Positions 1,846 to 37,098 of a stretch of DNA of 64,000 bases are shown here, one piece after another; positions within the stretch are counted from its first letter, which is position 1; the number at the start of each line of letters is the position of its first letter. This DNA comes from Micromussa lordhowensis (taxonomy: Eukaryota > Cnidaria > Anthozoa > Scleractinia > Lobophylliidae). The translations under genes and the position numbers were made by a program. The DNA is taken from the NCBI GenBank assembly GCA_964020085.1, contig OZ026601.1, forward strand, positions 28,508,118 through 28,572,117, given 5' to 3'. The notes beneath the pieces were generated by a model. It worked only from the letters and a program-made list of their open reading frames with translations, was not told the DNA's origin and searched no databases.

Positions 1846-1849
1846 ATTA
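1846..1849. repeat. Left target-site duplication ATTA
   Basis: ATTA immediately precedes AACAAGGGTCAG at the left tip and is repeated as ATTA (37095-37098) immediately after CTGACCCTTGTT at the right tip. A 5-bp TATTA reading is possible if the element is taken as one base shorter at the right end. Confidence 0.75.
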
Positions 1850-4800
1850 AACAAGGGTCAGATTGTTTTCGGACTGTCAGATTGTTTCCGGACACCATTT
1901 TTTTTGGTGTATTAAACAAATTGCATGTCTTTTTTGTTTAATAAGCAATTTTGACACATCAAGTTTGATTATTAAACTAAAAAGTCGTTATTTTTGGCTT
2001 ATTAAGCAAGAAAGGTTGCTTATTAAGCAAGAAAGGTGGCACTTCATGTTTATTAAACATGTGACTTTCGCTTAATAAGCAAGAATGGCAGGTATTCTTG
2101 CTTATTAAACAAGTGTCACACAACACTCTGTCACACTAAGTTCGTCCGCCATTACGGATAAAAATATCGACAACGAAAACAACGCAACGGATAAATCATT
2201 CCTATTGAAAACCTTCAAATACAAGTCTTGACTGGTCAGGCCTTCAATGAAAGCCATAATTAAGTGACGACTTTCCTTTTCTGGACAGATATTTTTGTGT
2301 AAGTTTTCTTCACGGCGTGATCGATCGGCAGCCGGCGGCCGTGAACGACTGCATTTTCGATGTTCAAGTTTTCAAACGAAAGTGAACCTGTTCAGTCGAA
2401 TTGCACAACATCAGCATTTTAAATAAATAGGTCTTTGAATACACAACGGACGGATATTTCATTGAACACAGACTATCCATATAGGTGGTCTCTACGGACT
2501 GCATCTGGGCTTACTTCAAACATGTCAAATTACAGCGCGGGTCAATTTTGTCAACATTTACAAGATTACTGTTGTCATCAATTTGCGCTTTCCTCTTGAT
2601 GCACTTATTGCCGAAAGTTTGGGCTGAATTTCGTTGAAAAAACTCGGCTGAACATAAAAGAGTGAGAATTAAAGTTTATCTGAACAAAACCGGCGGGGTT
2701 TTTCACCGAGAAACTACTAAAACTTGAAATGCCATTTTTGGTTATTAAGCGAAAAAAGTGACACTTTTTGCCTATTAAACAAGGCACTCTTGTTTATTAA
2801 ACAAAAAAGTTAGTTTTTCTTGCTTATTAATCAAAAGCGTCCCACAGTAAGTTAGGTGTTAGTGTTCAACGGCTACTAGACGCCTTACATGTAAGCTTAT
2901 TACCGAAATCGGCATATCAGAACAAAGAAAATAGTGCTAAGCTTATTTAATATTGTGAAAAACTCTTTTTGTGTACTGTTCTTATATGCTAAGCGATCAC
3001 ACTTTAAGGCATGAATTTCCTTTTCGACAGTTAATTCAGGGAAAGATTTTCGATTAAATTTTCCCGAAGCGTTTGAATGGTGAAAGCCGCGAGCGACTAT
3101 TGCTCGTTCAATGTTTGAAGTTTTAAACGAAATAACGATGAGCCTTGTTCTCTCAAAATACTGAGAAATATGAAGACAGCAAGAACAGAACACTTCAATG
3201 AAGGTGGACAATCGTAGAACTATGTTTCTAAGAGATTAAAATCTATTTTGGGTACGATCGGTCTAAAATAAACAACACCACGATCCGCGCCGCCTTTCAG
3301 TCGATTTAGACCGAAAATTACCGGAGTCAGAGAAATGTTCTGATTTCTGCGTTCTGCGTTGCCTTTCGTGTTCTGATTGAACCCGTAAAAAATCTCACAC
3401 AGACGAAAATGAGTGATAGGTTTTCTTTTTCAACAAAGCTGTTTGTCCACTTTCGTGAGTTGCACAATCCACCCACGGACAATATGAAAAATCATTTTTA
3501 GGTTATCAAGCGAAAAAGGCATCAATTCTTGGTTATTAATCATGTAACTTTTGCTTTTTAGACGAAAATAGAGCTCTTCTTGCTTGATAATCAAGCCTCG
3601 CAACACTTCCACGAGACCTCGCCGACGCGGGTTACCGCCGAGAAATTGTGGTCAAAGATTACATGCATACTTTTTGCGGGACTATTTCACGGCATTTACG
3701 TTTAGTCGTTAGATAAATAAACTTCCAGCTGAAAGAGTGCAAATTTATGCTGTTATCAGAAGTTCTTTTCTCTCGGCATAAAAAGTTTTCGGAAAAAGAG
3801 TTTTTCATGATTTGAAGTAGGCTTACTTGCTAATCTGAGTGAATCACACTGTCACACAACCTGTGCGACTTTTCTCAGCCTCTTGTAAGCTGGTCACGTT
3901 CCATGCTATTTAAATAAAATTCAACGGATTGAAGCGATGTAAAAGTCATAGATTTTCATTTAAAGTACGCACTTAAGCTTAACGTTTTTTACTTTATCAG
4001 TCACCTGCAGAAAATAAGCTTACAGTCGCTTATAGTGAGATATGCAAGCCGGGAGCCATTTACATCTCGCGGTGCACGAGTTTCGTTTTTGCTAAACTTG
4101 TTTAACCGTAGCTACCAAATCTCTTGACGTATGTAATAATAATTTCAGTTTTGGTTAGAAAGAAACCTAGAACTGGACACTCCGCCTGGGCGTTAAATGA
4201 TTAAATTGGCCTTCCGGCCGTACAAGTTAGTACAACACTCACTCGCACCAATAAGCTTGTCCATGCGTGTTTTGCGGGTCTGGGCGGAAAAATTATAGAG
4301 AAGTTATTAAAATGTTTAAGATCAATGTCCTTGCGAATAAATCTCGTGGTCCTTTCGGTTTTTAGTCAAAATTTATTGTTTTTGGGTAACGATAAAATCT
4401 GTCGATGAAATGAACAACATTACCAGCGCCGTCGGATTGAATACAAAATCTCAGACAGACCAAAAGGAAGCGGTAACCGTTTTTTTACTAGCTTGTACTT
4501 AAGTATACACAAATACAAGAAATTTGCAACAAACAATCCACTGAACGAAAATATCAGCTCTTCTCGGTTGACAATTTTTCCTTCAAAAAATGTCATGAGA
4601 CCCCACCACACCGCGCCGCGAATTTCACGTGCAGAAAACTGCCGAGAATAGCGATCGAAAGATAACAAAATTTGCATATTTCTTCGGACTCTGTCACGGC
4701 TTAATTACTTCCAGTGGTTGGATAAATACATTTCCAAGAGTGAAATTGGTAAGCTTATGCTGTTATCAGCAGCTTGCTTTTTTTTCTTTTGGTATGAGGA

Positions 4801-6746
4801 GATTTCAGCGACAGAGTTGGCATGATTGAAGCACCTTTGCTTTCCTTCACACAACGGACCCGAGTGTTGCTGCGTTTGGCAGTGTAGTGTTTTTGAAATA
4901 TTCAACGGTATGAAACGATTTTTTAGATTTTCATTTGCAGTACAGACTAGTGGTTTAAACTTAAGCTCAAGACTTAATCGGTCACCTGCTACACTGCTGC
5001 ACTGAGGTATGCAAGAGATTACTACGTGTGGATGGGGTTTTCGTATTTCAATCTCGTTTGTTCCAAACTTGTTAAACAACCGTAGCTTCCAACCTCTTGA
5101 AACGTTATCGTATGTTAGAATATTTGTTTTGTGGGGAAAATCTCAGAGCTAGCTAGACAGCAAAAGGCACCCGTTGGTACACTCGCTCAACTCAGGACAA
5201 CAGTATATTCTCACTCGCGTGCGTTTTGCGCGGGAAAAATGTCAGACAGCTTTCAACCGCTCTAATATCGGCCGGTGCAGTCTAAATCAAAACGGCAATG
5301 AATAGACAACTTTTTAGCATCAACATACAATTATTTTAATTAACGATAATGCCAGTTACCAAAACTGACGAAGACAACTGAATGATCTCACCTTCTTCTT
5401 TTTGGTCTTTACAAGTAAAGAACACAACACCGGAGCCATGCATCTTTATCACGCCGTAATGTACTTCTAAAACTCATCTTGCCCTTTAAATATCCGATCT
5501 TTCAATGCCCTTGCGAATAAGTCATCAGTGACTTGAACCGCTATAAGTGATGATTTTCCTTTTACAATCACTTCCTCGGCCTCGTGCATATGTACCACAA
5601 GCATATACGCAAAGCGATCTCCCGAACTCCTTCGGTAAACGGATAATGCTGGACGTTTTTAGTCAGTGATTTTGCAAGATCACTCTTGTTTTCCTGACTA
5701 ATGTCTTCCATAATTTAGCGGGGCAGTCACACATTTTCAGTCGCTCTCTGTTCTTTTTACTACAACTGCATTGCAAATTCCGGACCGGCCTAAAACTAAT
5801 GGAGAAGTCATCAAAGTGATTGCGTTCAACGGACTTGCGAATAAATCTCGATTGTCGTAGCGTTAAGTTGAAATTCGACGAACATTTCCTCTGCACTTGC
5901 CAGTGTCATGATAAGGTGATCACGTTATTAAAAGTGGTTGCTATTTTCAAACGGCGGAAAAACCTTTGGGAATAAAGACAGATCTCACTGCCAAAATCTG
6001 TCCAATCAAACTCGTGGCTGTCAAACTGTCAAACTTGGGCACGCCCTAGACCAAAGTTGTTTGCCGGTTGTAAATTGAAGCGTTATAAAAAATCTCCTAC
6101 CGACGAAAAGGGGCAATAGTTTAATTATTGATCATTATTGGACAATAAAACCGTTTTTCCGCTGCCAAACCGTACTGTGCCACGACTAGACAATACTGCA
6201 ATGAAGAATCCGTGTACTTGAAAACCATCTTTTAAGTATCAAGCGAGCACGGCGTCAATTCCCGTTAATTATATATAAGTAGCCGATTGACTCTTCTTCT
6301 TGCTTGATAATCAAATCTTAAAAGAATTTCATGAGACCACGCCATTCCACCGCAAAGAGTGGAAAAATATTCCCGCTATCATAAAGGCTCTTTTCTCTCG
6401 CGTATTAAAAGAGTTTCAATCGCTCCCTGACCTATCTATTGCAACTGCTATGAATTTTCGTGCAGCTCAAACCCGGCCGCCATTAACTCTCTCCTGCAAT
6501 TTGTATGTCAAGCACTACTCCTTGCAATCTGCAGGATTAAATATACTAAATAACATAACAAATGGGTGTCAGTGTTGTACACTACAATGTGAGGGTTTTT
6601 CTTATTATTTTTTTGGTCTCTTGGATAATAACCTAGTGTATTTTCATTTTTACCATTAGGTCGCTCAGGAAGCTACAGATTAGCAGCCATGGTAGCTTGG
6701 AGTGCACAGCTAGTCAGTTTAGAAAGTTTTAGACAGAAGAGTGGTT
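1850..6746 (+). repeat. Left inverted arm of the 35-kb element (4,897 bp)
   Basis: Reverse complement of 32219-37094 with only scattered differences. The length difference is 21 bp, which is explained by one extra 21-bp copy of the array unit (GCTTATTAAGCAAGAAAGGTT) near 1998-2040 in this arm. The arm contains palindromic arrays (1900-2113, 2735-2840, 3495-3600, 6295-6315). It also contains at least two diverged ~1-kb internal units (about 3578-4555 and 4555-5290) that share the CATGAGACC...GCCG start, a TGCTGTTATCAG segment and a GCGTGTTTTGCG-like segment. I recognise no protein in it; short open frames are shared with the right arm simply because the arms are identical. Confidence 0.9.
1900..2113. 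repeat. Subterminal palindrome array, left end
   Basis: At least eight variants of CTTGCTTATTAANCAAG occur at 20-35 bp spacing, the clearest at 2097-2113. Related sites recur at 2735-2840, then with TTATCAAGCG / CTTGATAATCAAG variants at 3495-3600 and 6232-6315. The regular spacing and dyad symmetry look like binding sites for a transposase or its cofactor. Confidence 0.75.
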
Positions 6747-8005
6747 GATGCTTCAAACATGTTGTTTTAGATTAATTTATCTCAATCCATAAGTTATTTC
6801 TCTCAGGAACTTCCGATATCTTCCATTAAAGAACGATTGTGAATAAAAAAATTCTTTCCTCCGGTTTTCTTTACATGTAAAATGAAAACCACAAGACGTT
6901 GAAAAAGTGACAGAGATAATAACGTGGTTATTAGGGTAAGAGAAAAAGGTGCGACATCATGACTAGCACTTCCTAAATCAATTCATTTTTCAGAAAGACT
7001 GATAGCCCCAGTCGGGATGTGCTCAATAAATGTATGTATGTATGTATAGTACCACAAATTAGAACTTGAACCGTGTTTTGAATTCAACTTTATAAACTGA
7101 AAGATCCCTGAAAGATCTGATGAAGACAGCGTTCCATTTCTGCCAGAAAAACAAAAAAATAGGATGTAATTGCTACATAATCTGATTACTGTTATTTTTT
7201 TGAGCTGCAAGCAGCTGAGTGCGTTTGCGCATCTATAGTGCTAATTCGAGAAACCTTTCGTCTGTACAGTTACATTCTTCAGACTGTACAATTACATTCT
7301 GAGCTATTTGTAGCCGATTTCGGAGGTTGTCACTTGTAAACTGGAAGTGTAGAACTCTATGCTAGGGAGGGGGCCGAGGTCCTTGGCTAGGGTGTTCTGG
7401 GAGCTGTGGAAAACTCCGGGTCTGTTTGGCCACGTTATTACGTCATACTGCTGTCTATAATAAATATGGGTAAATACCCTACAATAGTTACCATTTCTTG
7501 ACTCTCTTAGTTTGGCTCTGTCTATTTGCCCCTTTTTTTGGTCCAGCTTTTCGCTTTTTCGTTGTAACCTTAAATTGAATAGTAGGAACAACAGATTGAA
7601 CTAATTAATCAACTAGCATGCCCCAGGTTACGGCATGAATTTAGCGGGACTAGTGGCTAATTAAATAAAATAATTGATAAGAAAACGCGAGATGAATTTA
7701 TTGAAACAAAACTATTTTTGTATATGCAGTACTGTAGCCGTATGATTTCAAAGGTTCTCACAGAAGTGTTGAGCGTTGCTGACGTATATTCTACCGCATA
7801 GATCTTGGAACACTGGCCACTGCGGACTTCTGTAAAGCAACCTTTTTTCCCCTCATCTTGGTCTCTAACGTTTGCCTTTATTTTTTTTTCTGTGAATGAA
7901 AGTCCATAAAGAGATACAGAGCTCGTGTGCGATTTCCACGCGTTTCATTTCATTTGATTTGATTTCATACGATGGGTTCAACAAAATTTCAATGGAACTA
8001 ATCAG
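6747..8005. other. Inner border region: decayed arm extension, no gene seen
   Basis: Bases 6760-6975 still resemble the reverse complement of about 31335-31545 (TTAATTTATCTC-ATCCATAA, GATATCTTCC, GGTTATTAGGGTAAG, GCGACATCATG), so the inverted arms once extended further inward. A short TGTA microsatellite lies at 7030-7050. No coding family is recognised between 6980 and 8005. A minus-strand poly(A) hexamer, TTTATT on this strand, occurs at 7877-7882 and could serve the transposase gene. Confidence 0.55.
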
Positions 8006-11000
8006 TTAAGCCTGCGTAGCTGGCAGGATTTCGCTTATATTTAGATATATTATTACCTCCACCTCCATTTCCTCCCTCTCTACCAACTTGAGGAGGGCCT
8101 CCTGAATGTGAGGAAGTGCAGCTGTCGGAGAGGCGTCTTCTTCGGCACACAACGGTTTCAGCAGAGGCAGCACCCACCTCCGTCTGTGGGGAAGTACGCC
8201 TTTACATGCAATAAAGTTCTCCCACCACTTATTAGTTGCCTCGTCAAAATTGAGCTGAAACTTCGGCAGTGCTTGCTGCAGCTTCTCGAAATCAATTTTG
8301 GTCTGGTCGGGATCTAAAACACTGGGCTGGCCTGATGGCGTCTTATCCAAGAGTTGTAGCCCCTCTGCTGGGGCCCAATCGGGGCTAGTCGACCACTTTT
8401 TGTAGTAAAGAATGGCATGTCCGTCCGAACCCTTGACGATCTTGAACTGGTGTTGGTGGACGTGACCCGAGAGTTTGGGAACAGCACACCCCTCCAGCCA
8501 TTGCTTCACATCATACATGAAATGTATGATCTTTGTTTCAACGGCTGGAGAGTAGCTGTTTCCAATCTCTCGGATCAGCTCGACAAGGGTCCGGACATGG
8601 ATCTTCGCCAGTCTTCTTGAAATGCACGAAAATAGTTGGTCTATGTCTTCGTGTGTATGGCCAACCATGAGGAATGAAATCTTTATCTGCCAGTAAAACA
8701 AAAAGAGAATTTTAACAGTGAGCCACTGTTCAGCCAGTTATCATATCAATGGGAAGTACTGAACAAAAGAAACTGCACCTATAACAAGGAGCTTTTATTA
8801 GCCTTTTTCAGTGAGGGACTGTGTGTCTGGATACATTTAACAGGAGCTAGTTTGACGAAAATTCAATGCAAAAATATTTTCACAAGGCTCTTTTTCGATG
8901 TTTTCAGCTTTTTTTGGCAGTGGGCGTATGTATTCCAGTTTAATTCGCAACTACATTGTATAATGGGAACGGCACGTCACGTGAAGAGAAGAAAACGCGA
9001 TAGGAGATTCTCGCATGTGCCAATATAATCCAAGTGCACACTATTAAAAAGCCTTTTTTCTCACCTTCTTAAAAATCCCCAGCTCCACAAGTAAAGCCAA
9101 AAAACAGAGAACAAAACGGTTTTTGTTCTCCCTCCAACAGTTGTCCATTTGGAGGTACAAATTTGGAGGAAGTTTGCCAAGCTGTAGAAACCAAAAAGCA
9201 AAAATATTTTTCTAATAGGTCTGTTAACTTGTCGGCATTCTTGTAACATTTAGTGTAGAATCTAAGGTTCCCTAGTTATCAATAGAGCAACGTTTAGACA
9301 GAAATTGTAGTAAAATTGCTGTCATACGTGAAGGTGTGGCCTCTACTTCTGTGGGCAAGAGGTGCAAATTCATTCTTTCCCTATCGCGATGCCATTGTTT
9401 GGGAAATAGTTTACTACAATCCCGACCAAAAGTAGTTGGGATACTTGAACCGTATCATGTATCCCCTATCCCCCCTAATCAATGTTGCAACATGTCGCGG
9501 TTTTTTCCAACAAAAAAATAAAAAAAATAAACTGAATATACACATTGGTGGGAAGGGGAGAACTTGCTTCGCTCTTCCCAACTTTTTTGTCTGGGATTGT
9601 ACCTATACTGTGTTGTCATATATTATTGACAGCTATCGTACCGTTGTCTGTATCCACAGCAAAATGTGTAGAAGAATATTTATAGTGAGGTTGCTGTCAT
9701 GTGGCCACTGACAACAGTCAATGAATGCAGCCGCTTTTGAATGGTAATTCGCCAGTGCGCCGGTAACGTGCGTTTTTAATTTCCAGGCATGATCGTCAAT
9801 CTACAAAGAAGAAAATGCCAGGTTATAGATGGCTTGACGTCATAAGTTTCAAATAAACATTTACTGTATTTGATCTATTCAAAAATCTGAGTAACATAAA
9901 TAATAGGAAAATGCATGTAGCCAGTTCACGGTTTTGCGTCATCCCTGCCATGTATGTATTAAATAGCGTTAAAACATCAGTAGTTTTCAATTTTAGTTTT
10001 TATTTATCTTTAAATTTCATTCACCTTGGTGGTGGTTGTGAAATGTGGCAGGTTATGTTTTGATTGGTCCATCCCATCGATGGTCAGCGAAAGGTACTTG
10101 TCGGGTTGGGCTTTAGCCTTCAAACCATGCTTGTAGTATTTCTTCCTCTCTGCCCTGTTGCATCATAATTTATAAGTTAGTAATGGTACTTTTAAGCCCT
10201 GGCCAAACGGAGTCGCAAGTAGACCCAAGTTTAAAACTTGGGTCCTCTTGGTACTCTGTTTGGCGATGACTTGCGCTCACTTTGGTCGCGATCAAATTTT
10301 CACGCAAGTCAGAGCAAGTTCTTCGCCGTTTGGCCACCCAAATCAAGTCAACGCAAGTGTACGTAATGACCTCCATTAACCTATTGGCCAAGTAAATAGA
10401 GTATACTCTAATTAAAATGCTTTTTTTGCGACTTGCGTGTACTTGCGAGTAAACTTGCGAGTCCGTTTGACCACCTAACGCAAGTCTCTAGGCAAGTTTA
10501 ATTTGCGTCCTGTTGCGACTACTTGACTGTTCGTTTGTCCTGGGCTTTATGTTTTAGATTCATTTTTATTAGTAAAAATGACACACTCGCGATGTACTAG
10601 TTCAATTACTTACAATTGTTGTGTTAGATGTATTTTCCTCATGATAGCCAACTTTCGTCTGGTTGAAGCATCAACATTCGGCTTGCTTATTTCTTCTTTT
10701 ATGTGTACACAAATAGTACATTTCGTGAACCGGCTTTGCTGTAAAATAGAATGATGAAAACGAAATGTCAATTCAAAGGTTGCCATATTGGCATCATTGT
10801 TTGCACTTACGTATCACGGTAAACTTGTGGCCCAATCCCCAACCTGGGGCCAAGGAACTGAACGTCAAACTTAAAGATAAGTTAGAAGTTATAAGGGAAA
10901 GTATATACTCTAATGGGTGTGAGTATGAATGAATGGTTTCCGTGTTTGAGCAGAATTTCGTTGTTATGCATCATTCTAAAGTATCGCTAAAACTAAATTG

Positions 11001-14000
11001 AATTAGCATTTCCAACACCGAATCTTAGAGTTTAAACTCTCTGAGCAGATTTCTTCAAGGAAAGAATAGCGCACTGATGACTTTTTACATTTTCAGATAT
11101 CAAAGAACCATATCCCCTTGAGCATACATTGTAGTAGAAGAATACAAGAAAAATAAGTTGCAATCCCGAGAATTTACCTTTGGGATTACGACATCCGGGA
11201 ATTTATCCTTCCACATGTTGTAAAGGAATGTCGATTTTGCTAGGCAGGGCCTGTCCTTCTCCTTCATTTCTTCTTCGTAAATTTTGAACACGGCGTCTTT
11301 TGTAAGACAAGACGGTAGATTTCGCACGCCGTTGGTCGGCATGCTATCTGCGTTCAGAGCAAATTTGTTCATCCAACTCACAGCGAAGTCGAACGCAGCA
11401 CTCCTCGATCTTCCCCTTTTTGCATCTTCGTTCATTGCAAACTCGCAGACTTTTGCACTCTCAAAGTAACTATTTCGAGAAAAATAACAGCAACAATGAA
11501 GGAATGTGAGAACCTTCAACTAACATAGTTATAAGAGGGATCCATAGGGAAATCATTTGTCGCGTTACAACAAAAGCCGTTTACACCTAGTCCTCTCAAC
11601 AATAAAATTCACTGACAGTATTAAAAGCGCAGATTACTTAAGCTTTCGACCTCAGTTCGCGAGCGATAGGCGATAGTAAATAGGGATAGAGATAGGGAGT
11701 CACATTTTTGGTCATTCTGCTGTCCTGAGTCTTACCGCCGTCCTGTTGTTAGTATTATCGGAACCTACCTCGATCTCGCAATGCCATAAACTTTGCACCA
11801 CGCTGTGGTACAAGCTTGTACACCCTCCAAAAAATGTTTTTTCTCTGCTGGTCCACTGCCGGGGGGTCGTATGTCGGCTTTTAGGACCTAAATCAAGAAA
11901 ATAGAATGACTAAAATGAATATACTGAATACATCAACCGGCAGGTCCATAGCAGGAGAAGGAATGGGTCCTTAGGCAAGTCTTGAAATTGTTTTTGCTTA
12001 AATTTGATTAATTTAAAAAAAAAAGCAGGAAACAATATTTCCCCACAGATTTCCTTATTATTCGCCTTTATTTACAGAAAGGAAAACACATTTAATGGCA
12101 AAAGGTAACATTTTTTTGTACGTTCTTATTGACACTAAAATCGTTGCCAGACTTCTTTTTGTTCAGCTAAAATACAGTCTAAATACAGTCTAAATACCTT
12201 TTGCTCTCAACCAGAAACTAATCATATGTTGAATAGGCTTGCCCTTTGTGTACCTGTTGCGCTAAACTGTTAGCTTCCAATATGATAAAAGTAGCATACC
12301 TTACTGGCCGATATGGAGTTTATGAGAAACTCTTTTGTTGTTTTGAGTTTTTACCCCTCCAGTAGTGTTTTCTCCGCCTGGCAATGTAACTGATTGGCAG
12401 CTGATGAAGGCAATTATCCTGACAACAGGAATCTTCTAACTCTCGAATAATCGTTAACGAGTCTGTTTTCTTGGCATATTTTTCTGCAACGAACGTACAG
12501 GCTAAATATTAACCGATGACCAAAAATATTACAACCTATGAAGCCATAAAGTGAATGTTACTCACTTCCACTCGTTCCTACAGTGGCCCATATATGCAAT
12601 GCACAAATAAAAATTTCAGTGCATATATATTGATCTGAACACATTACGAACATGTTTTTGAGTGCACAAATATAGATTTTCAGTGCACAAATATGTTTTT
12701 CAGTGTAGAAATAAGTTTCCCAGTGCACAAATATATTTCCAGTGCACAAATAAGTTTCCCAGTGCACAAATATATTTCCAGTACACAAATAAGTTTCCCA
12801 GTGCACAAATATATTTTTCAATGCACACATATGTTTTTCAGTGCACAACTATGTTTCCCGTGCACAAATATGTTTCCAGTACACTAATATGTTTCAGTGC
12901 ACAAATAAATTTCCCAGTGCACAAATAAATTTCCCAGTGCACAAATAAATTTCCCAGTGCACAAATAAGTTTCCCAGTGCACAAAATTATTCCTGGCACC
13001 TAATGGGCTAAAAATGGTTGAAAGACCCTGGGACTAGAATATGTCAATGCCTTGTTTGCTGCGCTTTCGTTATAAGAAATCAGTTTTGGTCGCAAATAGA
13101 AGCCATCTCTGATCGATTAAGCATGTTTTGCCGGAATTGCGGCAGAGGTTTGGAATCTTCAATTGCTTTTTTCCCAAATTGCGGAGCAAAAATGGGAAGC
13201 GGAGACATCTTCATCCGCTGGGGATAACATTGTTGGCGGTGCCTCACTCACGAACCAGACGAGCCGCAAGCCGATTACCACCTTCGGAGCCAGCAGCTCC
13301 TGCAGCAATCCCTACGTTCAAGCAGTTTCCTCAGTGTTTAAAAAGTCTAAAAAGTGTCGACGGACCTCACGACTCCTGCAGTTCGCAAGGAAAAGATTGT
13401 TTCGCCTTTATAGCTTAGCTTTGACAAGAATGTCTTTCAGGGATTTTCCTTTGCGAGTGTAAAATGAGGTGACTAGCCTACACGACTCCTACGGTTCGTG
13501 ACATTTGTACATTTGCCGTTCTCTTTTCGGTCTCTCGACCTTTTTGTTGCTTCACTCGTGTTTATGAAGGGCACTTCACGTTGTGTTTTCAAGAGGAATT
13601 TTTAGTAGAGCTGAGCAGCACGAATTAATTGCTCTAAACAAATAGTTTGGCGCGAACCGAATCGCAGTGTTTGTTTAGTGTTGGTTTCAGTTCTTTGATA
13701 AAAAACATTTCAAAAATAAGACAGTCAAATTTGTTCTGACACTTTCTTAAGATTCGAAATCTCTGTGCGATGTCTTCTGGCTCCATATCGTGCTGCTCTC
13801 TGAAGTGGTTTCCGATTGCCGATACAGGCCACACTGAAATGAATACACCACGCACTGTTGACTCACAAGTGGCGGCTTGTCTTCCCTGACCTTAATTTCA
13901 TCCTTGATCTTTCTGCTTGTGTAAACTGGGGGTGAGAGGTCGAGAGGAGAGGTCGAAACGTCGTGACTTTTTAGCGTTAGTTTTTATTTCAAAATCCAGG

Positions 14001-22100: not shown

Positions 22101-25100
22101 CCACAATTTTCTTACCAACTACGTGGAAGAGAACGCGATAGTCTTACCTGGAAGGATACCAGGATTCAAGCGAGATGATGTTCAAGTACTGTCCTCGAAT
22201 GAAACAAAGATTAGTGTCTGGCGCGTGTACACTGATACTTGTAAAGCTTCTGATGAACAAGCAGTATGTTACAGCAAATTCGCTGACATGTGGCAACAGT
22301 TCCATCCAAATGTTGTTGTTTCAAAACCAATGTCTGACCTTTGCTTTACCTGTCAGCAAAACACGACTAAGCTTTTGCGCGCAGCAAACCTACCCGAGCA
22401 AGAAAAATCGGACTGTATTAGAGCCCAGCAAGATCACTTGGACTGTGCACAGCGTGAGAGGGAATTTTATAGAAGCACTTGTTCGGTCGCGGCAACAACT
22501 TTCAAGCGCATAGAAGCCGAGACAAACTTCAACGAAAGCCGCGAAGCTTGTTCTTTTGATGGCACCATGCACTACGCATTTGATTACGCACAGCAGGTCC
22601 ACATTCCTAGTAATCCAATGCAGCCGGGTCCCATTTATTTTAAGACTCCCAGAAAGTGTGGCATTTTTGGAGTCTCCTGCGAAGCAGTTCCCCGTCAAAT
22701 TAACTATTTAATCGACGAGGCTGGCGCTGTTGGGAAAGGAGCTAATGCAACGATTAGCTATGTCCATCATTTCTTCGCTCGGCATGGACTGGGAGAAAAA
22801 CATGTACACCTTCATGCGGATAACTGTTCTGGACAAAATAAGAACAATTATTTCCTCTGGTACTTTGCGTGGAGGATTGCGACAAAACTCCATCAGTCTG
22901 TCAATTATTCTTTCCTCGTGGCAGGGCACACTAAATTTGCACCTGATCGATGTTTTGGGCTGCTCAAGAAATCTTACAAGGTCACGTTCATTTCATCACT
23001 GTATGAACTAGCCCGAATGGTTGATAACTCAAGCAACACAGGAGTAAACAAAGCCCAACTTGTTGCAACGCACGATGGACGCACCATTGTACCTGTATAT
23101 GACTGGGCAACATTTCTTGGACAATATTTCAATAAAATCCCAAACATTAAGAAATTTCATCATTTCCGTTTTTCCATTGAGCGACCTGGAATTGTTTACT
23201 GCAGAGAATTTGTTTCATCGCCTGAACAGGAATTTACTTTGTTGAAAAACCGTGCTGTAATTCCACCGGCTTCAATTCTCCCACAGAAGATCCAACCAGA
23301 AGGCCTGAGTGAGGAACGTAAAAACTATTTATTTAGGGAAATACGTCAATTTTGCAGACCAGGAACTGAAAACTTAGTTGCCCCAGCCCCATAAGTTTCT
23401 AGCAAAGAGACAAAACCTTTGGAAACGTGTGTTTTAATTGTAGTTATCTTACTTCATAATTAGTAAATACACACTAGTATTGAAGGTCTTTGTAGTGTTC
23501 TCTCAAAATAGCCTTGCGTTTTTATCAATTTTGTAAATTTTAGGAAATAAAATGAGTGTTATTGCATATTGTTGTTACAGTAAATTGAGATGGACTAGAC
23601 TACCTTTCTTTCAATTCGAAAAAAAGGGAGACAAAAATTAATCGAAAAATGCGTGATGGATCCTTCATAGTTTTTTATTTCGCGTCACCTAACACTTTTC
23701 TGACTTTTTACCGCCTCACGCATTTCTTACAAAAGCGTCATGAAGAATCTTCCCTTTCGTTTATAATTTCGAAAGCGCGCGAGAAAAAAACTAATGAGAA
23801 CGAAAGATTAATGCTTCGTAGTTTTTTCCTTTTCGTGCCGCTTAACACTTTTTGCCGCCTCGTGCATTTCTTATTAGAGCATCATCAAGCGATTTCTCTT
23901 GCTTTTATCATTTCGAAAGCGCGCGAGAGAACAATGAGAACGAAAGATAATATTAATAAATAAATAAATGCTTAAATAGATAAATGCTTCGTAGTTTTTT
24001 TTCTCTTTTTGTACCGCCTAACACTTTCTGCCGTCTCGTGCATTTCTTATTAGAGCATCATCAAGCGATTTCTCTATCATTTCATTTTTTTATTACTAAT
24101 AACATGTCATTCCTTAATGTTACAACTAGACTGAAGCTGTTTACATCTCATCAGTTACACAATACTTAATTGGAGCGATTGTTAATACTTTGATTCCTTT
24201 CGAATGCAAATCTTTGTGACCTACACTTTGCATTTATTTTTGTCTTAATGTGACGCCACTGCTTCTCTTCATCACTAGCTGAGTGAGCAGGGAATTTGGT
24301 GAAGAGCAAAACTGAAAAACAAAAACGAAAGAGAATGGTTATGTTTATTAATCAAAGATAAAAATTGCACTAGCAAATAGAAAGGGTAAATAAATGTTAC
24401 TGTTCTTACCTTTCAGGGAATTAAGCTTTGTAGTGTCCAGGCATTCTTTATTGTGGGAGCCGTCTGTATTGCTATGTGATAATTCCTCTTTGGAGAAGAA
24501 GTACTGCAGCAGTTTCAGAGCGCACATGTGTCGTTGAATAATGTGAAACACATAACTGTTCCAGTTCATAACCTGCGAGGAATAAACTGCATACTGGTAT
24601 GTCCTGTGCATGAATCCATTGTAGGATACTCAAAAGGTCTCGTAAATAAATTAATTTGAAGCGCTAGTGTTGTGTTTGAGTTGCTGTCTTTTTAAATGAA
24701 GAGTGATTGTCTTTTAGGAAAGGCTTTGATTTGTGAACTCTAAGTGGTTTGATTATGTTCTTTCGAAATAAATTGTGAGGTTTTGAGCGGCTAAAGGAAA
24801 TGCGTACTGGATGACCTGTTACTCTCTATTGTGCATGAATCCATTGTAGGATACTGAAAAGGACTTGTAAATTTCTTAATTCAAAGTGCTTGTGTGTGTA
24901 TGTCCCGCAATAACCTTACAATGTCAACTCCCACATAAATAACACCGGCTGTAACTCTCTCTCTCTTTCAAAAATGTTATTTTATCGCATAGTTCGGTAC
25001 TGACTTATTTCTAGTTGTGGAAAGGTCAAAAGATATAACGCATGTGAAACTTCTCCCAAGTTTAGCGGCAAAAATTTCGGGCATTTGCGAATGTAAATGT

Positions 25101-28100
25101 CAATAGTTTATTTACTGTTTACATGCGAGATTCACAACACTCGTCATTTGCATGCTGCGTAATTCTGCGTATGTTTTGTCTCAACTAATTCTCAAGCTTT
25201 ACCAAGAATTTTAAATTAGGTTATCCGCTTAAACTTTTTGCTCGTTACAAAATGGTGGATTTGAGCGATTTGATGGGTTTTGCGTTGACTTTTACTGCAC
25301 GTTACAAGGAGTCAAGGGTGGAAAGTTCATTTTCGACCGCCCAGCGCCAAGCAGATTTTCACCCACAAATTTGAATCGCCCGGCTTCCAAATCGAACACC
25401 AGATAAATGGAAGATTGATGCTTCTTCTCGTGGCATTCAATCGAAGATCCATTTAAAATCCAAGTGCTAACCACCAAATAATTTTCCAGAAATACACCTT
25501 TCGAAGCGACGATTTCGTGTGCTAAGAGCAACAGTCACGCTGTTCGCTCCACGCTGATTGGATGCATTCTTTACCATCATCCAATCAGCGTGGAGTATCA
25601 GCGTGCCTGCGGATGAGCTTTCAGAACAAACGCAAGTCGTTCGAACGCTAAGTTATCAAGAAGCATTTAAACATCTAACAATAGTTTCGTCAGTTTAACG
25701 GAGGGGCGTTTCAGGGAAGATCAAAACAGCATGGTACAAAATACCTTGTCATAAATTAATCGTGATGTGATGCAGTCGCGGTAAATAAATAATTTGAAGC
25801 GCTCGTGTTGTTTGAGTTGTTTACTTTTTACATGAATGGTGCGTGATTGCCTTTTACAAAAGGCTTGCGATTTGTTTTTGAGTGGTTCACTTCTTAAATG
25901 AATGGTGCGTGATTGCCTTTTACAAAAGGCTTGCGGTTTGTTCTAAGTGGTTTAACTTCAGTCTTTCGTCATTAATATTTGAGGTTCGAACGGCTAAAAG
26001 AAACGTTTTGAGCGGTAAAGAGGAGGCCGTTTGAACGGTGTAGAACAGTAAAGACGAAGTGTTGAACGGTTTACAAACAAACGGATAGAGCTCGCCGTTC
26101 GAACGGGGCCGTTTACAGTGGAAGATTCAAGCGTTTTAAACGGCTGGATTTATTTAATAAACGGGGGAATAAATTAACCAAACGGGCAGAGCTTGCCGTT
26201 TGAACGGGCGGTAAGAAATTTTAAACGAATAAACTAACGTTTCGAACGCTTTTTCCGGGCGTTTAAACGGCATACAAACGTTTATTGAACGCCAAGAGCC
26301 GTTTGAACGGTTAACCCTAATTGCATGTTTTCCCGTGGAAGGTCACATATGATGTAGGCCAGCAGAGTTTTTTTGACACACTAAAATGAGTTTGGAATAA
26401 TTATTGTGGTCAAACACTGTTTTGATTGGTATTAGATTCGGACCTTTAAGTTCAGTGGACGTGATGCTCCTCCGAAATATACAAATTCCATGGTAGTAGA
26501 TGTCTACATCCATGGAATTTGTATACTTAAGACTAGGCTGTCAAAAACGTTGTACCAAAGTGCAGGTTTTTGTTTTGCAATTTGTCTCCAAATAATGTTC
26601 TGGTGATTGCTTTTCGTGAGCCATGTTACATGGAGCCAAACATGCTACAGACTCCAAAATGATAGCTTTGAAGATTGTGAAGTGGATACTGCTAGTCCCT
26701 TTGAAAAAAAATAGATTTTGCTGACCTTGTGAAGAATGCCAAGTCAGTCACAGGATTTTGAATGTGTAGTTCCAGAAAATATCCATGCCCACCCCATGGA
26801 AGGTTAATGGAAATTCAAAGGGGGAGGGGGTTTCATAAGCCAAATTTTTTGAATGAAAGTATGACACTAAAATGGAATTTCCAGAGAGGTGGGGGTATTC
26901 AATTTAAAAAACCTTCCATGGGAGGGGTATGGATATATTCTGGAACAACAGAATGTTTACTAGCTTTTAGGTGTGACCTTCTTCTCAAATACTTCATTTA
27001 GAATTCTTCAAGTGGTCTCCAAAGAGCTCACAAGGCCAGTGCAGTGGAGCTGGCAAATCTCCGCAAGGTATTTGAAGTAGAACTAACTAACTAATGTGCA
27101 GTTCCAGTTCCAGAAAATATCCATAACCACCCCATGGGAGGTTAATGGCAATTCCAAGGGGTAGGGGGTTCAAAGCCAAATTTTTTGAATGAAAGTATGA
27201 CACTAAAAGGGAATTTCTGGAGGGGTGGGGGATTCAATTTGAAAAACCTTCCATGGGAGGGGCATGGATATTTTCTGGAACAACACAATCCTCATCGGCC
27301 CCATGGGGACTCTTAAGGCCGGCCAGGAGATTGCGCCATCCATCCCGGACTTCCACCGATGCTGCCGCAGAAAGAAAGAAAGTTCTGCTACAGTGTATGT
27401 GTATGGCATGAAGCAATGTGAACTGTTCCTAAATGTACTTTTTTACTCTGTAAATTCCCTGTATTCCCTGTACATACACCCAGGCCATTTGGCGTAAGTA
27501 ACCCTAAGCAGAAACGAAATCACTTCAGCACTCGAAAGGCGTTAAATCACTTCGGTATAAGTATCAATAATTTCAAACTCCGTTCAAAGATGTATTTAAG
27601 CCTAGGGCCAAAAAAATATGACAAAAAAGCTATATAAAGAACCGCTAAAAGAGCTCTGATTTATTTCATTTATCTTTATTTTGCAAAACCCCTGTCACAA
27701 TCAATGGGGAATTTTTGCAACGTTTACCCAAATTTTATTATTTAAACCTGATTAAGTTTTTAAGGAAACTGCTGATTATACTTTCTTTACAACATTTTTG
27801 CAGGCTTCTGTTGAAGCAGAAGAAGATGATTTAGAAGTGAGTTGTAGTAACTGTTAGTAGTACATATTAGGTACCATGTTTACAAAGTGCGCCAAGTATG
27901 TTAATGGTGGATTAATTGAATTGATGATTTAACTTGCTCTAAGAAACATTTAAATTAATCATGCACAGCCATATTTTCAAAAGAATTTTACAGCTGATTT
28001 CAGCAAAGTTTCTGTGTCCCTTGGACATGCCTTGACCATGGTACATACACAGAATAGCGGGTTTGTTAAGTGACATAACGTGACCATTGTGAGACATTGA

Positions 28101-28619: not shown

Positions 28620-28656
<37 letters not shown>

Positions 28657-29986
28657 CAGTGGGCCGTACTCTCCTGTATGGCCCACTAAAATTTAAAGTT
28701 GGTTCTGTTGCAAAACTGTTTTGTTACATGTATTTATCGCCAACTGTTCTTGACCTTTATAGCAAGTAAGAGTTTAAAACTTTCAGTCTCAATTATTATG
28801 TGTATTATGAATAATTGGAAATTTGATGCTGGGGATTTATGCACAATTCCACAGGGCTCAAAATAATTTTTGAACGGTGGCCGGTCGTGTTGACAGCTGA
28901 TTTCAGCAAAGTTTCTGTGTCCACTGGACATGCCTTGACCATGGTACATACACAGAATAGCGGGTTTGTTAAGTGACATAACGTGACCATTGTGAGACAT
29001 TGGTGAAATGCTTATTCTTGATATTAATTATTTCTATGTAAAGATGTATTTTATGGGAGCACTATTTTGAGGCTTTGCTAAAGGAAGTATAACACCAAGT
29101 CTACTTTAAGTAATGATCCAGATAAGAACTACAGCATTTTCTATTGTTCTGCGGCAATAAGCTTTCCCCACATTGAAACGGTTATGTTTTCAGACCAAGA
29201 ATTTATCAACTGATGGAAAGCACGTTTATGAAATAAAATTTATTTAAACTCTATTTTGAAAGGTAGTTTCCTTTGTGTGAAAACATTTCAGCCAATCACA
29301 ACAGTCGTAAACAAAGACAATAAAAGCTTCCAATTTTCCAATGTTCCCCACATAGGATTTCTATGGTATTTAGACTCAGGAGGGATTTTGATGAAAGGAA
29401 AATAGTTGATCAATTAAAGATAAATAAATTTACAGCTACCTGAAGTTTTGTTAGATTTTGCTGATTGAGCCAATCAGAGGTATGATAGAACAATGGCAAA
29501 GTTGTGCAAACGTTAGCACCTTTCTGCATTCCTTGCGGCATGTGCTTTCCTTCTTACATGGACCATTACTTAAGTTTATATATAATTTTTTGAAAGAATT
29601 CCATTAAATTCCATTAAATTTCATTCAATCAGTTGAATGCAGCACAATCAAAAAGGAAAAAAGATGATCGTCCTGTCCAGGCAGACAAGGTACTTATATA
29701 AAATATTACTCGTCAATGTAAAGTATTTTACTTGTTAATAGATATAAGATCTGTAATAGCTTGGAAAATATGCTTTCATTTATATTATGTTAAACTGTTT
29801 AAGTCTTGACAAAGGAAGTAAACACCAAGCCTACTTTTAGCTTCTATCTAATTTTCCTTTTTGGATTTTCATTGAATTTTATTCAATTAGTTCAATGCAA
29901 CACAGCCAAGACAAAAAAAAGATGCTCCTCCTGCCCAAGCAGACAAGGTACTTTTCTTAGGTTGAATCTCTAGATAACTTTGTTAG

Positions 29987-30023
<37 letters not shown>

Positions 30024-30677: not shown

Positions 30678-30845
30678 AGTGTGAAATGTAAGTGTGTACC
30701 CTTCAGAGATGCTGTTACTCTGGCAAATGGAACAAAACTTCAGTTAAGCTCTGAAGGAAATCAACACAGGGTTTTTCTTTTTTGAATAAGCCATTGTGCC
30801 AAAATGCTGTCTATAAAAGTAGGGTAATTTTGAAGAATAGCTACC

Positions 30846-30893
30846 CAAAAAACCTGTCGGCCGACAGTTGACCAACAGTTGGCCGACAGGTTT
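30846..30893. repeat. Strong hairpin in the 3' region of the accessory gene
   Basis: AAAAAACCTGTCGGCCGACA is followed by its inverse (GTTGGCCGACAGGTTTTTT) after a few bases. If the donor at about 30687 and the acceptor at about 31053 are used, it would lie in a 3' UTR intron. Confidence 0.75.
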
Positions 30894-31119
30894 TTTGAAG
30901 AGCTCTTCTTCACAATTACCAAAAGTAGCATTTCAATTTATAGTTTTTCAATTTGTAATGGCAACCCCTGAGAATTATGATGATGCCTCAATGAAGCTTA
31001 AAAACAAGACTGCAGTAGTAATTACATTCTATTTTTGTTCCTTTTCTTGCACAGGTGGAACACCGTCTTCCAAAGATCTTCTGGAGCTCTGACTTCTGAC
31101 TTTACGGCCTCACTTGTAA

Positions 31120-31125
31120 AATAAA
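31120..31125 (+). terminator. AATAAA poly(A) signal of the accessory gene
   Basis: The first good hexamer after the TGA at 30675-30677. A probable 3' UTR intron (GTAAGTG at 30688, CACAG near 31053) shortens the distance. Confidence 0.5.
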
Positions 31126-32218
31126 GTGAAAATTTTTAATTCATGGCTTCTTCCGTAAACTTATAGTACTTTCAGCTTTAACATTCTTGTTCTAGCATTT
31201 AACAGTCATGCCTCAGCTCTCGTTACTGAGCCTTTCTAAACTAGATTACCTTCCATTTTGTTATCATGTAGCTAAAAATAATGTCACAAATTGACCACAA
31301 AACATTTTTTACTTGAAATCTCAAATATATGCTGAACATGATGTCGCATCTACTTATCTTACCCTAATAACCATGCAATTATCTCACTCTTTCAATCTCC
31401 TGTGGTCTTCATTTGAAGGGAATCGGATAAAACATTTTTTTCCTACAGTACTTCTTTGAAGGAAGATATCAGACTAATGTGCCAGACAGGAATAATTTAT
31501 GGATAGAGATAAATTAATTTCAAACTGTATGTTTTTTGCATTATGCCTGCCAACAAAAATAATAAATGACTGCAACAACTTGGCTATCAATGGCATGCTC
31601 TGTTTGCTGGGCAGAAAATTAACAAACACATCAATGTGGGAAAATTTTAGCTTTGTTAAAACAAAGCCACTTTAATTTGAACCTTGATTATAAAGTTACA
31701 TTCAAAGTACCGTCTGCCTCGCAAAGGTGAGGACATCGCAATTGCCATCTGAAGTCAAACTCAAGCTGGTTCTGTCCTCGTGTACCGGTTCACAAGAGCC
31801 GATACAACAGACCAAACAATAAAAAACAGCTAACCAATGACTTCTAAACAAAGAAAGAACAATCATTCCCTTATGAGCCTGTACACCAGGACAGAACCCT
31901 CAAGCTCATCAAGATAAAAGCAAATGCAAAATAAATAGTTTAGATAAAAAGATTAAAGTAAAATTTGAACTGCATTCCAACAACAATGTCAAAATGATCC
32001 AAAATTAGGGAATTCGAGTTTTTGAAAACGAAGAAGGCAAACGTTAGGGTGGATTTTTGTTTGTTTATGACAGCACATACGCCATGTACGCAACACCAAA
32101 TCAAACTAAGACCTTGACCGCTAGCAAATTCGCGAAGCTCAAGGTAAGAATTGAATAAAATAGGCAGGGCAGTGGATAAATTCTTTCTTAGTGAAACAAG
32201 TAAATTCCTTTAAGTATA
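31126..32218. other. Inner border of right arm: decayed repeat plus ~650-bp insertion, no gene
   Basis: 31335-31545 is a diverged inverse copy of 6760-6975. From about 31550 to 32218 there is sequence with no counterpart on the left. It includes an inverted pair, GGTTCTGTCCTCGTGTAC near 31768 and GTACACCAGGACAGAACC near 31880, which looks like a small MITE. No coding family recognised. Confidence 0.55.
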
Positions 32219-35200
32219 AACCACTCTTCTGTCTAAAACTTTCTAGACTGACTAGCTGTGCATTCCACGCTACCATGGCTGCTAATCTGTAGCTTCCTGA
32301 GCGACCTAATGGTAAAAATGAAAATACACTAGGTTATTATCCAAGAGACCAAAAAAATAATAAGAAAAACCCTCACATTGTAGTGTACAACACTGACACC
32401 CATTTGTTACGTTATTTAGTATATTTAATCCTGCAGATTGCAAGGAGTAGTGCTTGACATACAAATTGCAGGAGAGAGTTAATGGCGGCCGGGTTTGAGC
32501 TGCACGAAAATTCATAGCAGTTGCAATAGATAGGTCAGGGAGCGATTGAAACTCTTTTAATACGCGAGAGAAAAGAGCCTTTATGATAGCGGGAATATTT
32601 TTCCACTCTTTGCGGTGGAATGGCGTGGTCTCATGAAATTCTTTTAAGATTTGATTATCAAGCAAGAAGAAGAGTCAATCGGCTACTTATATATAATTAA
32701 CGGGAATTGACGCCGTGTTCGCTTGATACTTAAAAGATGGTTTTCAAGTACACGGATTCTTCATTGCAGTATTGTCTAGTCGTGGCACAGTACGGTTTGG
32801 CAGCGGAAAAACGGTTTTATTGTCCAATAATGATCAATAATTAAACTATTGCTCCTTTTCGTCGGTAGGAGATTTTTTATAACGCTTCAATTTACAACCG
32901 GCAAACAACTTTGGTCTAGGGCGTGCCCAAGTTTGACAGTTTGACAGCCACGAGTTTGATTGGACAGATTTTGGCAGTGAGATCTGTCTTTATTCCCAAA
33001 GGTTTTTCCGCCGTTTGAAAATCGCAACCACTTTTAATAACGTGATCACCTTATCATGACACTGGCAAGTGCAGAGGAAATGTTCGTCGAATTTCAACTT
33101 AACGCTACGACAATCGAGATTTATTCGCAAGTCCGTTGAACGCAATCACTTTGATGACTTCTCCATTAGTTTTAGGCCGGTCCGGAATTTGCAATGCAGT
33201 TGTAGTAAAAAGAACAGAGAGTGACTGAAAATGTGTGACTGCCCTGCTAAATTATGGAAGACATTAGTCAGGAAAACAAGAGTGATCTTGCAAAATCACT
33301 GACTAAAAACGTCCAGCATTATCCGTTTACCGAAGGAGTTCGGGAGATCGCTTTGCGTATATGCTTGTGGTACATATGCACGAGGCCGAGGAAGTGATTG
33401 TAAAAGGAAAATCATCACTTATAGCGGTTCAAGTCACTGATGACTTATTCGCAAGGGCATTGAAAGATCGGATATTTAAAGGGCAAGATGAGTTTTAGAA
33501 GTACATTACGGTGTGATAAAGATGCATGGCTCCGGTGTTGTGTTCTTTACTTGTAAAGACCAAAAAGAAGAAGGTGAGATCATTCAGTTGTCTTCGTCAG
33601 TTTTGGTAACTGGCATTATCGTTAATTAAAATAATTGTATGTTGATGCTAAAAAGTTGTCTATTCATTGCCGTTTTGATTTAGACTGCACCGGCCGATAT
33701 TAGAGCGGTTGAAAGCTGTCTGACATTTTTCCCGCGCAAAACACACGCGAGTGAGAATATACTGTTGTCCTGAGTTGAGCGAGTGTACCAACGGGTGCCT
33801 TTTGCTGTCTAGCTAGCTCTGAGATTTTCCCCACAAAACAAATATTCTAACATACGATAACGTTTCAAGAGGTTGGAAGCTACGGTTGTTTAACAAGTTT
33901 GGAACAAACGAGATTGAAATACGAAAACCCCATCCACACGTAGTAATCTCTTGCATACCTCAGTGCAGCAGTGTAGCAGGTGACCGATTAAGTCTTGAGC
34001 TTAAGTTTAAACCACTAGTCTGTACTGCAAATGAAAATCTAAAAAATCGTTTCATACCGTTGAATATTTCAAAAACACTACACTGCCAAACGCAGCAACA
34101 CTCGGGTCCGTTGTGTGAAGGAAAGCAAAGGTGCTTCAATCGTGCCAACTCTGTCGCTGAAAACTCCTCATACCAAAAGAAAAAAAAGCAAGCTGCTGAT
34201 AACAGCATAAGCTTACCAATTTCACTCTTGGAAATGTATTTATCCAACCACTGGAAGTAATTAAGCCGTGACAGAGTCCGAAGAAATATGCAAATTTTGT
34301 TATCTTTCGATCGCTATTCTCGGCAGTTTTCTGCACGTGAAATTCGCGGCGCGGTGTGGTGGGGTCTCATGACATTTTTTGAAGGAAAAATTGTCAACCG
34401 AGAAGAGCTGATATTTTCGTTCAGTGGATTGTTTGTTGCAAATTTCTTGTATTTGTGTATACTTAAGTACAAGCTAGTAAAAAAACGGTTACCGCTTCCT
34501 TTTGGTCTGTCTGAGATTTTGTATTCAATCCGACGGCGCTGGTAATGTTGTTCATTTCATCGACAGATTTTATCGTTACCCAAAAACAATAAATTTTGAC
34601 TAAAAACCGAAAGGACCACGAGATTTATTCGCAAGGACATTGATCTTAAACATTTTAATAACTTCTCTATAATTTTTCCGCCCAGACCCGCAAAACACGC
34701 ATGGACAAGCTTATTGGTGCGAGTGAGTGTTGTACTAACTTGTACGGCCGGAAGGCCAATTTAATCATTTAACGCCCGGGCGGAGTGTCCAGTTCTAGGT
34801 TTCTTTCTAACCAAAACTGAAATTATTATTACATACGTCAAGAGATTTGGTAGCTACGGTTAAACAAGTTTAGCAAAAACGAAACTCGTGCACCGCGAGA
34901 TGTAAATGGCTCCCGGCTTGCATATCTCACTATAAGCGACTGTAAGCTTATTTTCTGCAGGTGACTGATAAAGTAAAAAACGTTAAGCTTAAGTGCGTAC
35001 TTTAAATGAAAATCTATGACTTTTACATCGCTTCAATCCGTTGAATTTTATTTAAATAGCATGGAACGTGACCAGCTTACAAGAGGCTGAGAAAAGTCGC
35101 ACAGGTTGTGTGACAGTGTGATTCACTCAGATTAGCAAGTAAGCCTACTTCAAATCATGAAAAACTCTTTTTCCGAAAACTTTTTATGCCGAGAGAAAAG

Positions 35201-37094
35201 AACTTCTGATAACAGCATAAATTTGCACTCTTTCAGCTGGAAGTTTATTTATCTAACGACTAAACGTAAATGCCGTGAAATAGTCCCGCAAAAAGTATGC
35301 ATGTAATCTTTGACCACAATTTCTCGGCGGTAACCCGCGTCGGCGAGGTCTCGTGGAAGTGTTGCGAGGCTTGATTATCAAGCAAGAAGAGCTCTATTTT
35401 CGTCTAAAAAGCAAAAGTTACATGATTAATAACCAAGAATTGATGCCTTTTTCGCTTGATAACCTAAAAATGATTTTTCATATTGTCCGTGGGTGGATTG
35501 TGCAACTCACGAAAGTGGACAAACAGCTTTGTTGAAAAAGAAAACCTATCACTCATTTTCGTCTGTGTGAGATTTTTTACGGGTTCAATCAGAACACGAA
35601 AGGCAACGCAGAACGCAGAAATCAGAACATTTCTCTGACTCCGGTAATTTTCGGTCTAAATCGACTGAAAGGCGGCGCGGATCGTGGTGTTGTTTATTTT
35701 AGACCGATCGTACCCAAAATAGATTTTAATCTCTTAGAAACATAGTTCTACGATTGTCCACCTTCATTGAAGTGTTCTGTTCTTGCTGTCTTCATATTTC
35801 TCAGTATTTTGAGAGAACAAGGCTCATCGTTATTTCGTTTAAAACTTCAAACATTGAACGAGCAATAGTCGCTCGCGGCTTTCACCATTCAAACGCTTCG
35901 GGAAAATTTAATCGAAAATCTTTCCCTGAATTAACTGTCGAAAAGGAAATTCATGCCTTAAAGTGTGATCGCTTAGCATATAAGAACAGTACACAAAAAG
36001 AGTTTTTCACAATATTAAATAAGCTTAGCACTATTTTCTTTGTTCTGATATGCCGATTTCGGTAATAAGCTTACATGTAAGGCGTCTAGTAGCCGTTGAA
36101 CACTAACACCTAACTTACTGTGGGACGCTTTTGATTAATAAGCAAGAAAAACTAACTTTTTTGTTTAATAAACAAGAGTGCCTTGTTTAATAGGCAAAAA
36201 GTGTCACTTTTTTCGCTTAATAACCAAAAATGGCATTTCAAGTTTTAGTAGTTTCTCGGTGAAAAACCCCGCCGGTTTTGTTCAGATAAACTTTAATTCT
36301 CACTCTTTTATGTTCAGCCGAGTTTTTTCAACGAAATTCAGCCCAAACTTTCGGCAATAAGTGCATCAAGAGGAAAGCGCAAATTGATGACAACAGTAAT
36401 CTTGTAAATGTTGACAAAATTGACCCGCGCTGTAATTTGACATGTTTGAAGTAAGCCCAGATGCAGTCCGTAGAGACCACCTATATGGATAGTCTGTGTT
36501 CAATGAAATATCCGTCCGTTGTGTATTCAAAGACCTATTTATTTAAAATGCTGATGTTGTGCAATTCGACTGAACAGGTTCACTTTCGTTTGAAAACTTG
36601 AACATCGAAAATGCAGTCGTTCACGGCCGCCGGCTGCCGATCGATCACGCCGTGAAGAAAACTTACACAAAAATATCTGTCCAGAAAAGGAAAGTCGTCA
36701 CTTAATTATGGCTTTCATTGAAGGCCTGACCAGTCAAGACTTGTATTTGAAGGTTTTCAATAGGAATGATTTATCCGTTGCGTTGTTTTCGTTGTCGATA
36801 TTTTTATCCGTAATGGCGGACGAACTTAGTGTGACAGAGTGTTGTGTGACACTTGTTTAATAAGCAAGAATACCTGCCATTCTTGCTTATTAAGCGAAAG
36901 TCACATGTTTAATAAACATGAAGTGCCACCTTTCTTGCTTAATAAGCCAAAAATAACGACTTTTTAGTTTAATAATCAAACTTGATGTGTCAAAATTGCT
37001 TATTAAACAAAAAAGACATGCAATTTGTTTAATACACCAAAAAAAATGGTGTCCGGAAACAATCTGACAGTCCGAAAACAATCTGACCCTTGTT
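32219..37094 (-). repeat. Right inverted arm of the 35-kb element (4,876 bp)
   Basis: Inverse of the left arm, ending CTGACCCTTGTT at 37094. Palindrome arrays mirror those of the left arm (36838-37045 and inner sites). It has one array unit fewer. Only sparse substitutions distinguish the two arms. Confidence 0.9.
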
Positions 37095-37098
37095 ATTA
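37095..37098. repeat. Right target-site duplication ATTA
   Basis: Matches ATTA at 1846-1849 directly outside the opposite tip. Confidence 0.75.

Follow-up and report, generated by a model that had tools for sequence, protein, structure and literature searches.

The window analysed here is a stretch of 64,000 nucleotides from contig C7 of the stony coral Micromussa lordhowensis (genome size 581 Mb), and its positions 1850-37094 are occupied by a copy of a terminal-inverted-repeat (TIR) DNA transposon (Table 1). The two arms are co-linear inverted repeats of ~4.9 kb, differing by 17 substitutions and one 21-bp insertion or deletion (indel; 1997-2017, present in the left arm only). From the tip to the first substitution the arms run for 2,338 bp. 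The tips read AACAAGGGTCAGATTG and its exact inverse, and ATTA adjoins both of them. A preliminary description made from the letters alone had reported the exact inverse tips, the ATTA on both sides and the co-linear 4.9-kb arms with a single 21-bp indel; all of this was seen again, the 17 substitutions in addition. The length of the arms and the recurrence of the tips in the genome exclude a chance origin of the inverted arms. Independent copies carry different duplications and the two arms are distinguished by 17 sites, which makes an assembly artefact unlikely; on these grounds, and in view of the 21-bp indel, the reading as an assembly palindrome was dropped. The nearest named relatives of the proteins encoded in the window are found in stony corals.

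With a 121-bp tip query, at least 26 tips of at least 98% identity were found in the same genome (best 40 of 46 candidates). They group as at least 11 convergent pairs, the window included, and at least four single ends. The same query revealed a second family with at least 11 further tips at 88-90% identity (again the best 40 of 46). These copy numbers are lower bounds, since 40 of 52 candidates were scored in one tip search and 40 of 46 in the other. Both ends were read in 13 copies, 11 of family 1 and two of family 2 (C9:22.0 Mb and C653), with lengths of 5.9, 7.0, 8.7, 9.4, 10.3, 10.6, 11.6, 11.8, 15.1, 24.9, 35.2, 48.5 and 50.0 kb. Copies of family 1, with nearly identical ends, span 5.9-48.5 kb, and family 2 includes one of 50.0 kb. 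Eleven of the 13 are flanked by an exact 4-bp target duplication, every one different, and two by an exact 5-bp duplication. When left and right flanks were swapped between copies as a control, none of 156 combinations matched at 4 bp and one of 156 at 5 bp. The duplication counts exclude the four single-ended family-1 copies and the other family-2 ends. Dispersed copies with inverted ends and duplications of near-constant length are thus present, as in a TIR transposon, and the recurrence of the tips that the preliminary description had proposed as a check is borne out by two-ended copies with target duplications. From the 48.5-kb copy on C6, the tips and two 10-kb pieces were seen; one piece matches the window in the arm only and the other carries window positions 4928-9979. 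At C1280:183995-275834, three left tips and one right tip lie between the same flanks as those of C653, and a unit there would span 87-92 kb. This locus was taken as another haplotype or a duplicate of the C653 locus, perhaps one made in assembly, and excluded from the counts.

Empty ATTA sites, which had likewise been proposed as a check, were found in paralogous form. A genome search with the window copy's two flanks joined gave 339 candidates, of which the best 40 were scored. The junction is spanned by 10 of the 40 matches listed; five of these ten loci were fetched, and all five read uninterrupted AGTATGTATTAGCGTTTTTTG with one ATTA. The first part of a dispersed repeat comprises the final 11 bp of the left flank and the right flank; the remaining left flank is a different repeat. 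The empty sites are paralogous, not allelic, and no allelic empty site was found among the best 40 of 339 candidates for the joined flanks. The flank of a single-ended copy on C1250 is uninterrupted at two other loci, between which identity across the insertion point is 98.8%.

The copy on C2 (24,912 bp) represents the window element without its nested pieces and is 98.7-99.7% identical to it in six main blocks. It lacks ~1.57 kb of one arm; therefore the intact unit measures ~26.5 kb, and we give the core as ~26-27 kb. Nested insertions inflate the window copy to 35.2 kb, so that the 35.2-kb element of the preliminary description holds as a span and not as the size of the unit. One insertion is a 5.4-kb transposon with inverted ends of its own, absent from the C2 copy, which supplies its empty site. 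It carries a single-exon open reading frame (ORF) of 580 aa with the Pfam domain DUF7869, and a 97%-identical protein exists in public data. This ORF was considered as the transposase of the giant element and rejected, for it belongs to a nested transposon that has 52-bp ends and an ATAT duplication of its own and is missing from C2. A second piece, specific to the window copy (~2.7 kb, inverted arms 99% alike), occupies the position at which C2 carries 383 other bases and is thus no clean insertion. Internal duplications are also present in the window copy.

The same interior is found in the second family. Positions 3.0-24.3 kb of the C653 copy (50,004 bp) are co-linear with window positions 6565-31544 in 22 main blocks, ~11 kb in total, at 75-89% identity; its right arm appears to contain a further 22.7 kb. 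This bears on the possibility that the element is a composite, in which two short long-armed elements inserted inversely carry non-transposon DNA between them. Several of the short copies consist mostly of arms and could frame foreign DNA, and the interior does contain a nested element. However, the interior is common to the C2 copy and to the second family, in the same order, and it holds a gene with the signature of purifying selection (gene 1, below). Since two diverged families keep the same interior in the same order, a chance composite is unlikely; we dropped this explanation and regard it as highly improbable.

Two regions, gene 1 and gene 2, stood out when C2 and C653 were scanned for synonymous excess. 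The same scan found no coding signal in those parts of the arms that align between the families. Gene 1 lies on the minus strand from 12.5 to 8.0 kb and comprises 486 open codons in six exons, with GT-AG at the five joined introns. Its ratio of nonsynonymous to synonymous substitution rates (dN/dS) against C653 is 0.114 over 422 codons, which indicates purifying selection. Damage is seen in individual copies: in C653 one exon is missing and the last is interrupted by a 13-nt gap, C2 has a 3-nt deletion, and the gene 1 matches on C8 and C1280 contain stops. The last exon matches DUF7869 (PF25273) with 109.3 bits and the nested 580-aa ORF with 70.5 bits (cut-off 26). DUF7869 is the sole Pfam family above cut-off in the last exon and in five relatives of gene 1, and Pfam describes it merely as a domain of unknown function. 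Relatives of gene 1 occur in anthozoans, molluscs, echinoderms, amphioxus and a liverwort. The fold predicted for these relatives and their acidic residues agree with a DDE/D transposase, with weak support from Foldseek, and a sequence search of solved structures gave nothing convincing. Both families share this spliced DUF7869 gene. Most likely gene 1 encodes the transposase of the element, a DUF7869 protein with a predicted RNase H-like DDD catalytic domain.

Alternatively, the giant transposon could be genuine and gene 1 its cargo or regulator, with the transposase of another element acting in trans. Short copies without full gene 1 must indeed move in trans, and the nested 5.4-kb element comes with a DUF7869 ORF of its own and is flanked by a 4-bp duplication. 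Yet gene 1 is among the two regions of the selection scan, its relatives keep the acidic residues, and further repeated units of the genome contain its lineage as well; we consider this alternative improbable. Gene 2 probably consists of two exons of one gene (Table 1). No Pfam family above cut-off was found for it, and none of its 14 relatives is informatively named. Between its exons, at window 17471-17980, 119-bp tandem repeats and a 65-bp repeat are seen.

The putative transposase encoded by gene 1 may find its binding sites in the arms. Near each tip stand two direct copies of CAGATTGTTTYCGGAC, and the same pairing, allowing up to 3 mismatches, is found at the tip of C653. TTGCTTATTAAGCAA-like palindromes cluster ~85-275 and ~890-1010 bp from the tip in the two families, at ~85-255 and ~890-990 bp in the window copy and in similar places in C653. 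These patterns, read without a shuffled control, are proposed as the terminal and subterminal binding sites of the transposase.

The arms are homologous throughout, left and right and in either family. Across the initial 1540 bp, a global alignment shows 496-501 of 1453-1472 sites to differ between the families, and local blocks differ by 21-29%, a divergence of roughly a quarter to a third. Within an element, the arms differ at 0-6 sites in seven elements of family 1, at 8 of 1596 sites in the family-2 copy C9:22.0 and at 29 of 1580 in C653 (56 sites over its full 2.7 kb), which amounts to ~2% or less. Being homologous across families and alike within elements, the arms must have become alike once more since the families separated; apparently, one arm of an element is copied onto the other. 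Two elements of family 1 have private variants in both of their own arms (3 of 22 variable columns). In the element at C5:37205999-37221137, a 1,862-bp insert flanked by TTAA and with GGTGGATGGTACC ends is found at the same place in both arms, in mirror image and 100% identical.

Taken together, we consider it highly probable that the window holds a member of a giant TIR DNA transposon family with a core of ~26-27 kb, most likely mobilised by the gene 1 protein, and that its arms appear to be copied onto each other. The family was apparently active recently. Two observations weigh against the copying of the arms. Family 1 is young, and the differences within its elements are hardly below those between elements (median 3, range 0-8). 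In C1:23.46 Mb, one arm has an unrelated 3.9-kb TTAA-flanked insert at the very TTAA that received the insert in both arms on C5; the site is thus a hot spot. As to the transposase, the support that Foldseek gives to a DDE/D fold in the relatives of gene 1 is weak. The preliminary description had spoken of a giant cut-and-paste family: family, giant size (core ~26-27 kb) and duplications stand, and both the movement itself and its cut-and-paste rather than replicative mode are suggested by the anatomy and the predicted transposase fold.

In the mechanism we propose, the gene 1 protein would attach to the repeat pairs at the tips and to the palindromes farther inside both arms, excise the element and insert it at a staggered cut of 4 bp, sometimes 5 bp, which would leave the duplications. 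Non-autonomous copies of ~6-15 kb, with both ends retained, would arise by internal deletion, and other copies would grow to 35-50 kb by nested insertions. During or after transposition, one arm would be copied onto the other by gap repair or conversion, and arms of kilobase length could so stay nearly identical.

An integrated virus or a Polinton-like self-synthesising element, with the long arms as its replication ends, was a further candidate. Polinton target duplications measure 6 bp, in contrast to the 4-5 bp found here. The element has 42 listed ORFs of at least 90 aa. A Pfam scan of 27 of them revealed no DNA polymerase, capsid, packaging ATPase or viral protease, shorter and spliced genes not being scanned exhaustively. 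We dropped this candidate and see hardly any probability for it, although the size of 25-50 kb and the long inverted ends recall Polintons (Mavericks), given as 15-40 kb with inverted ends, and Teratorn in the accessible part of a review (PMC6431247). According to the available portions of PMC6431247 and PMC10175614, Teratorn too is giant in size, has long inverted repeats and carries a transposase. Its TIRs of 18 bp, piggyBac-like transposase and herpesvirus genes set it apart, such genes being absent from the 27 ORFs scanned.

Giant TIR elements with nested insertions are known, and so are long-armed elements. The comparison with Sola covers the length and target of the duplications. Sola1 and Sola3 duplicate 4 bp of their target, as do 11 of the 13 giant copies. 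The same length is given for Sola2, with an AT-rich target AWWT in amoebozoans (PMC3627910, in the part available). Unlike Sola2, none of the 11 four-bp duplications of the giant elements fits AWWT. The ATAT of the nested element does fit, and so would the AAAT beside the single C1250 tip, whose other end was not seen. Galileo, a Drosophila element of the P superfamily, has arms of up to 1.26 kb, longest on copies without transposase, a P-type transposase and 7-bp duplications, according to the available part of PMC3573991. That source also describes long arms, deletion derivatives reduced to the arms, and exchange and chimeras between copies, in all of which Galileo resembles the present family. 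In contrast, the 4.9-kb arms belong here to a copy with an open transposase-candidate gene of DUF7869, and the duplications of 4-5 bp depart from the 7 bp of the P superfamily. In Ectocarpus, giant DNA transposons were reported with 21.5 kb (Sola-1), up to 30.3 kb (KDZ) and up to 15.2 kb (EnSpm). They are TIR elements above 10 kb in which nested insertions became fixed while transposition went on, and their accessory genes have unknown functions (accessible part of PMC12477816). The coral family shares these properties; it differs in its copies of up to 50.0 kb and its kilobase arms, the latter not mentioned for Ectocarpus in that part of the source.

The lineage of gene 1 is not confined to these two families. 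A search of the same genome with its protein revealed further families at ~66% and ~42% identity (best 88 of 547 candidates). A third repeated unit with a gene of this type (~66% identity) lies at C4:23488000-23508700 and C2:36281600-36302500. Its two copies are 99.5-99.9% alike in 10 kb and two slices, across 20.7 kb rightward; slices 5 and 10 kb leftward gave no match between C4 and C2, and the ends of the unit were not reached. To judge from these alignments, it may be another giant element, or it may be a segmental duplication. No paper naming DUF7869 was found in a literature search, and to this extent only can the family be called undescribed, as the preliminary description had suggested. 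Tentatively, DUF7869 might mark a superfamily of DDD transposons, as yet undescribed, that occurs in animals and plants. One of its lineages would be specialised in moving 25-50 kb and would keep its arms of several kilobases identical by re-copying them in each transposition cycle, for example via a hairpin or gap-repair intermediate, so that they would form a self-repairing docking platform with multiple sites. According to a review (PMC6431247, available part), eukaryotic cut-and-paste elements become less efficient once their cargo exceeds ~6 kb. If gene 1 is the transposase, the family offers a direct route to what lets large DNA move, and a system in which to probe why kilobase arms persist and what keeps the two arms of an element alike. 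Transposase function would then account for many of the uncharacterized DUF7869 proteins of animals.

Table 1. Features of the transposon copy and its borders (window positions)
Feature	Position	Strand	Remarks
Target site duplication ATTA, left	1846-1849		flank sequence; single ATTA at 5/5 fetched paralogous empty sites
Left arm (TIR)	1850-6757	+	~4.9 kb
Two direct copies of CAGATTGTTTYCGGAC	1859-1893	+	starts 19 bp apart; mirrored at 37051-37085
TTGCTTATTAAGCAA-like palindrome clusters	1933-2835	+	up to 2 mismatches; mirrored in right arm
Gene 1, last exon	8006-8686	-	GHTHEDIDQ motif and stop; Pfam DUF7869, E 2.3e-31
Gene 1, exon	9065-9181	-	second acidic motif MDNCWRENKN; joined model
Gene 1, exon	9642-9800	-	not found in C653; joined model
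Gene 1, exon	10025-10154	-	first acidic motif IDGMDQ; joined model
Gene 1, exon	10614-10738	-	joined model
Gene 1, most upstream joined exon	11178-11426	-	5' edge set by homology only
Gene 1, further upstream exons	~11768-11830, ~12326-12490	-	homology only
Window-only piece	12579-15272		718-bp inverted arms; adjoins AGTGCACAAATAAGTTTCC-like 20-bp repeats
Gene 2, exon 1	16171-16593	+	dN/dS 0.43 vs family 2; no Pfam family
Gene 2, exon 2	18198-18485	+	dN/dS 0.15 vs family 2
Nested 5.4-kb transposon	20948-26346	+	52-bp inverted ends; ATAT at 20944-20947 and 26347-26350
580-aa single-exon DUF7869 ORF	21652-23394	+	inside nested transposon; Pfam
Right arm, inverse of left	32208-37094	-	~4.9 kb
Target site duplication ATTA, right	37095-37098		flank sequence; single ATTA at 5/5 fetched paralogous empty sites

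Scans of the window with Rfam and for tRNA genes gave no matches. Other mobile elements abound in the right flank, with a fragment of a ZSWIM/MULE RNase H-like ORF at 37709-38032 and a retroelement with gag, protease and reverse transcriptase at 54241-56697.

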